This document shows positions 37,552 to 39,339 of a stretch of DNA of 39,339 nt, piece by piece. The DNA is from Campylobacterales bacterium (lineage in GTDB: Bacteria; Campylobacterota; Campylobacteria; Campylobacterales; Sulfurospirillaceae), in the NCBI GenBank assembly GCA_016930915.1, contig JAFGFU010000031.1, forward strand, positions 1 through 39,339. The letters run 5' to 3'. The notes below the pieces were generated by a model, which was given only the letters and a program-made list of their open reading frames with translations, did not search any database and was not told the DNA's origin. The first letter of the stretch is position 1. Each line of letters opens with the position of its first letter. The position numbers and the translations under genes are program-made.

Positions 37552-38643
37552 TTAACGTCTATTTTTTTGGATACGCTCATTGGCTTCTTCAATACGTTCC
37601 CATGAAATCATTCCATTTTTCACTTGTGAAAAAATGGTCTCAACAATTTCACTGGTCTGTGTTTTTGAGAGCTGATTACCAAAAAGAAGCATATCAATTC
37701 CAGAATTAATCGCTAAACTCAGAGCTTCTTTTAACGTATAATGGTTTGCAATGGCTTGCATTTGCATATCATCACTCACCAATACACCTTCAAAACCTAG
37801 TTTTTCTCTTAGCAAAGTTGTATTGATGGCATATGAGAGTGTTGCGGGATATTTTGCATCAAGATGTGCATTAAAAACATGAGCAGACATAATCATGGCA
37901 ACTTTATTGTTATCAATCAGTCGTTTATACGGTTCTAATTCAACCTCACCCCACGTTTGTGTCACATCCACAAACCCCAAATGCGAATCGCCCAAAGAAG
38001 AGCCATGCCCAGGAAAATGTTTCAATACACTGACAATATGATAAGAAGAGAGAGCATCAATAAAAGCAGTTGCATACGCACTCACAACATTGACATCTGT
38101 TCCATAAGAGCGTTCTAAGCCTACGATAACACTATTTTTTGGATTACGTGCGAGGTCAACATCAGGTGCAAAATTGCAATTAATGCCATTCTCTAAGAGC
38201 ATCTGTGCCATTGCATTATAGGTTAGAAGGGCATTTTGCAATGAATCTTCTGCAACCTTATGGGCAGAAGGTGTTTGTATAAATCCAGCTGAAGGCTTGA
38301 GTCGTGCGACATTTCCACCCTCTTGATCAACACAAATAAGTAAAGGATTTTTAGCAGAAGCCTTAAGAGAGTGTGTCAAGTTACGAAGTTGCATTGAAGA
38401 TCGAATATTTTTTACACGGGTTTTATCCGAATAAAAACGATCAAATAAAATCACACCGCCTAACTCATACCGCGCTATTTCTTCAACAACAACAGAGGTG
38501 CTAGTGAGACTTTCTTCATCAAACCCAACAATAAGCATATGCCCTATCATCTTTTTTAAAACATCATCATTAGGCATGGCATGAAGCGGAAGTAGGTAGA
38601 GCCAAAAAAATATACACAAAAGAACACTATTTCGCAAAATCAT
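37552..38643 (-). CDS. nagZ: glycoside hydrolase family 3 (NagZ-like beta-N-acetylhexosaminidase), exported
   Basis: This 363-residue GH3 barrel enzyme has VDQEGGNVARLKP, NFAPDVDLARNPKNSVIVGLERSYG, the conserved LKHFPGHGSSLGDSHLGF loop with the catalytic-dyad His, and the nucleophile Asp in GVLVSDDMQM. It removes N-acetylglucosamine from cell-wall fragments during recycling. It has a hydrophobic N-terminal signal (LLCIFFWLYLLPLHA), whereas enteric NagZ is cytosolic. The ATG at 38643 sits too close to AAAGG. A TTG two codons on (38637) has better spacing and may be the true start. Confidence 0.88.
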   Translation of the reverse strand: MILRNSVLLCIFFWLYLLPLHAMPNDDVLKKMIGHMLIVGFDEESLTSTSVVVEEIARYELGGVILFDRFYSDKTRVKNIRSSMQLRNLTHSLKASAKNPLLICVDQEGGNVARLKPSAGFIQTPSAHKVAEDSLQNALLTYNAMAQMLLENGINCNFAPDVDLARNPKNSVIVGLERSYGTDVNVVSAYATAFIDALSSYHIVSVLKHFPGHGSSLGDSHLGFVDVTQTWGEVELEPYKRLIDNNKVAMIMSAHVFNAHLDAKYPATLSYAINTTLLREKLGFEGVLVSDDMQMQAIANHYTLKEALSLAINSGIDMLLFGNQLSKTQTSEIVETIFSQVKNGMISWERIEEANERIQKNRR

Positions 38644-38660
38644 CCTTTCATTCTCAAAAA

Positions 38661-38678
38661 ATCTTTACATGTAAAGAT
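38661..38678. repeat. 18-base perfect palindrome ATCTTTACATGTAAAGAT
   Basis: This is the longest single copy of the dispersed palindrome in the window. It lies in the 44-base gap between the HxlR-type regulator and the nagZ-like gene, both on the minus strand. It could be a terminator for the regulator or a protein-binding site. Confidence 0.8.
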
Positions 38679-38687
38679 AACATCACT

Positions 38688-39065
38688 CTAATGTTTCTCA
38701 CTATTTTTACTATCACAAACATCCTCTTTTGTAAACGTACCACACGCTTTGACGTACTCTATTCCCCAATCAAACATCTCTTTAAGCACGGGACGTAATT
38801 TCTCGCCAATGGGAGTCAGCGAATAAACAACTTTAGGTGGAATTTCAGCAAAAACTTCTCGTTTGATGAGCTTTTTTTCTTCCAAATCTCGCAATTTAAT
38901 TGTCAATGTCTTTTGGGTAATTTCAGAGACTTCTTCAAATAAATCTTTATAGCGCTTTTCACCATCCATCAAATGCCAGATAATACCCAATTTCCATTTA
39001 TCGTTGAAAATGTCTTGTACAATTAAAACAGAGCACTTGTACTCTTTATCGTTCACAATATACAC
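38688..39065 (-). CDS. HxlR-family winged-helix transcriptional regulator
   Basis: This 125-residue protein has the HxlR core: an N-terminal Cys at about 11, then DKWKLGIIWHLMDGEKRYKDLFEEV, SEITQKTLTIKLRDLEEKKLIKREVFAEIPPKVVYSLTPIGEKLRPVL. Members bind DNA as dimers and often sense reactive electrophiles or redox stress through that cysteine. The start is GTG at 39065 with AAGGA upstream. These regulators usually control a divergent gene. Here the upstream side holds an inverted-repeat element and then the window ends, so the target is not visible. Confidence 0.92.
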   Translation of the reverse strand: MYIVNDKEYKCSVLIVQDIFNDKWKLGIIWHLMDGEKRYKDLFEEVSEITQKTLTIKLRDLEEKKLIKREVFAEIPPKVVYSLTPIGEKLRPVLKEMFDWGIEYVKACGTFTKEDVCDSKNSEKH

Positions 39066-39197
39066 GCTCTTCCTTTATCACTTTGAAAAACTATTTGAAG
39101 GATTATAGCGTGATTTAGATATTTTTATCATTACATTACAAAAGTATCGTAAGGATATATTAAGTACACTCATTTTATACTTCATTAGACTTTTTGC

Positions 39198-39339
39198 ATA
39201 ACTCTTGGAAAGGTGAAGAGTTTGCTTAGAGTGCGTTAATTTTGAAAACTCAAAAGTGAGTCATAGCCAAAGCTATGGCGATTTTTTTAGTTTTCAAAAG
39301 TGATGTGCTATGAGCGATACTCTTTTTTCAATGGGTTAT
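39198..39339. mobile_element. MITE-like long imperfect inverted repeat (cut by window end)
   Basis: The last 142 bases fold back on themselves. The left end ATAACTCTTGGAAAGG pairs imperfectly with the right end CAATGGGTTAT. The middle arms TTTTGAAAACT (39240-39250) and AGTTTTCAAAA (39289-39299) pair perfectly. The centre CATAGC-CAAA-GCTATG (39262-39277) closes the hairpin. AAGAGT/ACTCTT and GCT/AGC blocks match between. There is no ORF. This is the structure of a miniature inverted-repeat element or a structured RNA. Target-site duplication cannot be judged because the right flank is missing. Confidence 0.5.

Follow-up and report, generated by a model that had tools for sequence, protein, structure and literature searches.

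The contig studied here ends in a long fold-back next to a gene for an HxlR-family regulator, and this raises the question of whether such a structure is a fixed control element of the neighboring genes, a mobile element, a structured RNA, or more than one of these. The window (the whole stretch of 39,339 nucleotides that was analyzed) is the entire contig C7, with hxlR (125 aa, GTG start; PF01638, E 3.4e-29) at 38688–39065 on the minus strand. A sequence-only reading had described an ORF-free fold-back from 39198 onward, placed where the operator of the regulator or its divergent target would be expected, and proposed either a non-autonomous mobile element or a structured RNA. The fold-back was confirmed, with a stability far outside what chance produces: folded as RNA, 39186–39339 reaches -59.9 kcal/mol (z -8.5), its shuffled versions averaging -31.1 and none of 200 being as stable. 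Folded as DNA, the window-end element gives z -6.0, and here too none of 200 shuffles is as stable. Its arms (39224–39267 and 39272–39315) are 70% complementary, and both the perfect 11-bp middle stem and the central four-base loop reported earlier are found in their places, the former as 39240–39250 paired with 39289–39299 and the latter as CAAA (39268–39271), closed by 39260–39267/39272–39279. The 11-bp stem bounds the inner part of a plus-strand rod hairpin (39240–39299) topped by the apical hairpin GAGTCATAGC-CAAA-GCTATGGCGA (39257–39282, plus strand), which has a tandem G-A mismatch at its base and recurs in other element classes (see below). A terminator scan detected two sites, one per strand (0.2 expected), namely an 8-pair stem followed by GATTTTTTTA on the plus strand (39260–39289) and a weaker site on the opposite strand (39277–39262).

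The last bases of the element are missing from C7 because the window is a whole contig, the end of which falls inside the fold-back. The final 87 bases of the window also open two other contigs of the source genome, C15 and C16, contig C18 opens with the left end of another copy, and the empty sites observed in a close relative (described below) pair C7 with C15 and C18 with C16. The reconstructed element extends from window position 39187 to position 98 of C15 (164 bp, or 166 when the flanking T and A are counted); the window holds its first 153 bp on the plus strand (39187–39339), and the remainder corresponds to positions 88–98 of C15, the right end being read on locus L003. The start proposed earlier, 39198, was wrong and is to be replaced by 39187, or by 39186 if the duplicated T is counted. 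The element ends are nearly symmetrical and begin with AGACTT: end comparison places the left terminal inverted repeat AGACTTTTTGCATAACTC at 39187–39204 (plus strand) and the inner part of the right one, truncated by the contig end, at 39327–39339 (minus strand). The absence of an ORF was borne out for closed frames, none of at least 60 aa overlapping the window part of the element (frames open at the contig end lie outside this listing). The element accounts for the assembly break at this point and reveals what follows the window, i.e., a Flavodoxin_2 gene on C15, divergent from hxlR. Comparison with other loci confirmed the suggested placement in the operator or divergent target region of the regulator, as hxlR adjoins the flavodoxin-like gene at 17 of the 21 further loci inspected. 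The second copy (C18 with C16) has a FUR-family gene on one side and znuA on the other, so that it too separates a regulator from a divergent gene; these two genes are adjacent in 18 of 19 other loci.

Application of an intact copy (L087) as a query yielded matches in 19 of 60 genomes and in 16 of 24 within the genus (the source genome is counted in both), with 1 to 26 matches per genome among those 16, fragments and reverse self-matches included. From 13 further genomes of the genus, we sampled 59 copies of nearly full length, leaving further partial copies (e.g., in G003, G015, and G007) out of the count, so that the multiplicity for which the sequence-only reading had advised a search is present at the level of at least 59 copies. 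Together with the two copies of the source genome they occupy 48 distinct sites, 13 of the 61 elements having been set aside as shared sites; the second copy of the source genome is included in the flank count and stands outside the 60 aligned copies analyzed below. The end sequence (at most one mismatch) occurs in 24 of the 60 genomes, often in facing pairs, while control matches numbered 0 in each of the 60. Exact matches of the 26-base end pattern in named records were assigned to Sulfurospirillum in 8 of 10 cases (SCADC, 7; UBA1314, 1), and the other 2 are in a MAG titled Proteobacteria. The part of the literature covered by our search describes no MITE for Sulfurospirillum or its phylum; a large, recently moved MITE family is now documented in this genus.

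The flanks and the empty sites indicate how these copies were inserted. Identical 3-mers are found immediately outside AGAC...GTCT at 26 of the 48 distinct sites, and 25 of these 26 have the form ANT (ATT at 12 sites, AAT at 11, ACT and AGT at one each; the remaining one is CTT), as compared with a mean of 11.0 and a maximum of 22 in 20,000 shuffled flank pairings. When the boundary was set at AGAC...GTCT or farther out, a range that stops short of the inner boundary GAC...GTC, every alternative to the 3-bp duplication of 2 or more bases fit at most 9 of the 48 sites. Both insertion sites of the source genome are empty in the close relative G022. At the FUR-family/znuA site (L245), TTTTTTATTAAGTCAC is observed in G022 vs. 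TTTTTTATT-element-ATTAAGTCAC in the source genome, an exact match to the prediction for a duplicated ATT. The same site is one base shorter than a TA duplication predicts, and TA was rejected as the target duplication. The hxlR site (L215), TACTTCATTCAATTAAATC vs. TACTTCATT-element-ATTAAATTAAATC, has the length that ATT predicts, and this empty site is the basis for placing the left copy of the duplication at 39184–39186 and the right copy on C15 from position 99. A target duplication in the range anticipated earlier (2–9 bases) is therefore present, of 3 bp, at 26 of 48 sites and at the two empty sites. Two observations speak against the MITE explanation, the hxlR empty site being one base away from the exact prediction and 22 of the 48 sites having non-identical 3-bp flanks, which we attribute to decay.

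The distribution of the element also bears on the idea that the fold-back is a regulatory RNA or operator fixed in the hxlR region as a single copy. Such a role would suit a structured stretch placed between a regulator and a divergent gene; however, at E 1e-4 the element has matches in 0 of 21 other flavodoxin-gene loci and in 0 of 19 other znuA loci, only the two loci of the source genome being positive, and its copies occupy 48 distinct sites. With relatives lacking the element at the site, we rejected this explanation, the probability of which we consider negligible.

A plausible source of the mobilizing enzyme is provided by parent-type elements in relatives, four of 909 bp in G019 (delimited by their ends) and one of 910 bp in G032. 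They comprise two overlapping frames, the first with an HTH_Tnp_4 domain (free of internal stops in three of the four G019 copies) and the second with a DDE_Tnp_4 domain. Read as one, the frames of L068 score 167.9 bits to the IS5-family transposase model NF033581 (cut-off 140), and each of them taken singly is under this cut-off. The ends of L068 or L069 are matched by 56 of the 60 MITE copies at E 0.01 or better, with an inner match in none. L068 is flanked by AAT on both sides, and L069, the other complete insertion sequence, by ACT and AAT, which are not identical. More distant first-frame elements occur in G007, G010, G014, and G016, where the end match spans only 13 bases. ANT is the target rule of the ISL2 group, and on this basis the parent is tentatively placed in that group. 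Neither frame has a relative in the source genome (searched over its 37 contigs), so that the parent is deduced from relatives; this counts against the explanation, and the enzyme source of this genome has accordingly been lost, is missing from the 37-contig assembly, or is a different one. The earlier expectation of a parent transposase with similar ends was thus borne out in relatives but not in the source genome. Overall, the best explanation as a whole is that the window-end fold-back represents most of one copy of a MITE without an enzyme of its own, and we hold it with high confidence. The many copies, the 3-bp duplication, and the parent-type transposase ends in relatives agree with the mobile alternative of the sequence-only reading.

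Several other repeats with related ends were observed. A second family of ~138 bp (ends TAGACTTCTTGCAAAACT / TAGAGTTCTTGCAGAACT, several hairpins), exemplified in the source genome by L073:501-638 (C11:46457-46594) with AAT on both sides, has matches in all 24 genomes of the genus, 3 to 42 in each; stretches resembling it by eye are found in the hxlR-flavodoxin intergenic region of other species at L218, L219 (twice), and L222 (G009, G010, and G011). Two shorter sequences, both with ATT on both sides, are a 48-bp stretch consisting almost purely of two facing ends (L070:501-548, C13:38026-38073) and a relative of the window element shortened to 84 bp (L071:501-584, C25:28746-28829).

Whether the body of this MITE is merely carried or is also maintained for its structure can be approached by comparing the copies. 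The 61 pairs predicted by RNAalifold for the 60 aligned copies comprise 3345 unchanged, 144 one-sided, 104 compensatory, and 62 broken cells; with the partner slid by 1–3 columns, compensatory cells drop to 2–14 and broken cells rise to 852–1097, in a comparison that favors pairing since the structure was taken from the same alignment. The plus strand is the more stable one in all 60 copies (mean -75.3 vs. -52.2). At 78 facing positions, G-T accounts for 494 cells, A-C for 53, and other mismatches for 448; G-T predominates at seven positions and A-C at none. The tandem mismatch below the head is nearly invariant (G-A in 60/60 and A-G in 59/60), and two more mismatches are kept (A-G in 59/60 and G-A in 56/60). 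On a parsimony tree, single changes from Watson-Crick pairs led to G-T in 75 cases, to A-C in 36, and to other mismatches in 52 (p 0.0003 for G-T vs. A-C, with changes treated as independent), the overall substitution spectrum being free of strand bias (A->G 66, G->A 65, T->C 55, C->T 50).

Comparison with a more distant element extends this picture. G043, a genome from a different taxonomic family, has a 163-bp element that shares 75% identity with the consensus and retains the rod; at 61 shared pairs (chosen as those pairing in both), this element differs by 10 double and 3 single changes, as compared with 2.2 and 18.7 expected. Its strands fold with -87.4 vs. -54.4, and of the 10 G043 loci, the 6 in which both ends are present have the same strand as much the more stable one (L284, L286, L287, and L288, which do not have both, are outside the folding).

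These observations, along with the identical head in other element classes, argue that selection maintains the body of the mobile element as a structured RNA (or as one specific single strand of DNA), a proposition that supplements rather than replaces the MITE explanation and that we consider evenly balanced between right and wrong. On this view, the plus-strand transcript would form a rod that contains G-U pairs and a tandem G-A mismatch and ends in a fixed head, and an RNase or some other protein may bind or cut it. Several results weigh against it. Orientation of flanking genes is unbiased, with both flanks on the plus strand at 13 and both on the minus strand at 13 of 46 sites (the 48 distinct sites excluding the two of the source genome), although by a crude call based on the longest open frame in flanks of 179–501 bases (mostly 300), with short frames at 2 of the 46. 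No promoter-like site on the plus strand was seen inside the element in the scan, and Rfam yielded 0 matches at the gathering score for window positions 38600–39339 and eight loci with related elements, and a known RNA family was rejected. Five of the seven consensus G-U pairs are common to G043, and they may reflect one inheritance; moreover, the pair structures derive from the same sequences, and the p values assume independent changes. Compensatory changes had been named beforehand as a sign pointing away from a MITE: the arms do co-vary, but the element is multicopy and mobile rather than single-copy.

A further explanation is that the arms are kept alike by quasi-palindrome correction, one arm templating the other, without any selection on RNA. 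It would account for the higher agreement of the two ends within the same copy (0.870) than between different copies (0.785, with 0.814 as the highest value among 5000 shuffles), and for the excess of double over single changes relative to G043. Nevertheless, correction should erase mismatches, so that those kept at fixed places in nearly all copies count against it, and it predicts no strand preference, whereas a preference is observed; we regard it as unlikely. Returning to the structured body, there is moderate evidence that the plus strand, either as RNA or as single-stranded DNA, is under selection. A MITE body kept also as an RNA hairpin would be unusual, yet not unprecedented; the moderately supported novelty here is the strand-specific RNA constraint, the rest being a new MITE family. 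The combination of many copies, empty sites, and a candidate transposase makes this family well suited to testing whether the bodies of bacterial MITEs are under selection as RNA or are merely carried.

The apical hairpin is shared more widely than the body. In the form GAGTCATAGC-YNWA-GCTATGGCGA, with at most one mismatch, it occurs in 18 of 60 relatives, including G032 (exact) and G035 (one mismatch) of the same family, while the exact head pattern was found in 11 of 298 sampled genomes of the phylum, all of them of the genus. It is also present, on different bodies, in elements of 266–267 bp (G003, G006, and G019) and of 266–272 bp (G032). These elements (L289, L086, L298, L290, and L291) have related ends, and the four that were folded form an end stem bearing two rods and a small hairpin (the one of G019 was not folded whole). 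Their strand gaps are small (-140.0/-131.0, -111.7/-109.2, -138.5/-132.6, and -128.7/-128.0), which speaks against the RNA reading. In G006, G012, and G020 (L300, L301, L321, and L322), this head tops rods that precede a small hairpin of the CCCC/GGGG type; the IS5-type ends in the form searched are absent from these four loci, which possibly represent another element class. We tentatively suggest that several element classes of Sulfurospirillum and its relatives have in common an RNA head, GAGUCAUAGC-YNWA-GCUAUGGCGA, set on a tandem G-A mismatch, that the 163–166 bp rod is selected as a one-strand RNA, and that the head is a recognition site for a host protein, a combination that seems to us doubtful rather than probable. 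If it is true, the head-binding protein could be, e.g., an RNase or an RNA chaperone, through which the element would control the mRNAs into which it inserts or shield itself from them.

The position of the window copy allows some prediction of its effect on neighboring genes. A candidate -10 box of the flavodoxin-like gene, TATACT (39176–39181, plus strand), was identified by eye from its conservation upstream of this gene in the nine relatives compared, and the insertion is a few bases downstream of it. A promoter-like site facing hxlR (10/12 matches) is located at 39102–39131 on the minus strand, in a scan that found 1 site vs. 1.4 expected by chance. A stretch close in sequence to ATTACATTACAAAAGTATCGTAAGGATATTTTAAGT (39128–39165), which in the nine relatives compared is conserved in front of the flavodoxin-like gene, is a candidate HxlR operator, and the element is downstream of it. 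Since the element inserted immediately after the candidate -10 box, neither candidate promoter is disrupted, nor is the conserved upstream region. The plus strand of the element is the coding strand of the flavodoxin-like gene, so that the transcript would start within or just before the rod and then proceed through the terminator-like head; the window copy would accordingly sit at the start of this transcript. The insertion duplicated the 3-bp target ATT, and the proposed history is that a two-frame IS5-family DDE transposase, such as those of relatives, moved the element in trans. Transcription from the candidate promoter would then place nearly the whole element, as its stable strand, in the mRNA leader, where it may form the rod hairpin with its terminator-like head. 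The predicted outcome is a flavodoxin-like gene that is expressed at a lower level or whose transcript is processed, with the control of hxlR unchanged. Against such an effect, the TATACT box of the window went uncalled in the promoter scan, which in the relative with the empty site (L215) picked another plus-strand site (1 found vs. 1.4 expected); with each call within chance expectation, the scans speak neither for nor against the box.

A side-by-side comparison with known systems reveals both likenesses and differences. The window element resembles insertion-sequence-derived MITEs of bacteria in being short and without an ORF, in having the ends of an autonomous element, and in its short duplication, whereas here the whole body, and not the ends alone, forms a rod with a strand preference. 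In the account of PMC10969869, MITEs are AT-rich, mostly intergenic, and thought to derive mainly from insertion sequences, and their transcripts form stable stem-loops. The inferred parent is similar to ISL2-like insertion sequences of the IS5 family with respect to its length (~910 bp), its two overlapping frames, its IS5-type DDE transposase, and its ANT duplication, the last of these being consistent with what is described for bacterial IS5 (PMC4482050). Among the ISL2-group elements described in PMC3196728, two have two frames and lengths of 914 and 916 bp, no direct repeats being listed there for either, and the transposases of the group are given as typically one ORF. The window element differs from these insertion sequences in having no transposase. 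Correia elements (CREE/NEMIS) of Neisseria have ends that probably differ from those of the window element, and membership in that family was rejected as the empty sites fit a 3-bp ATT duplication and not TA. TA is the Correia target as described in PMC2649163, according to which the longer class measures ~155 bp and these elements can become part of mRNA leaders, where RNase III can bind or cut them. RNase III action is described for the Correia elements, and the window element is like them in its possible action, as a mobile hairpin that may enter an mRNA leader.
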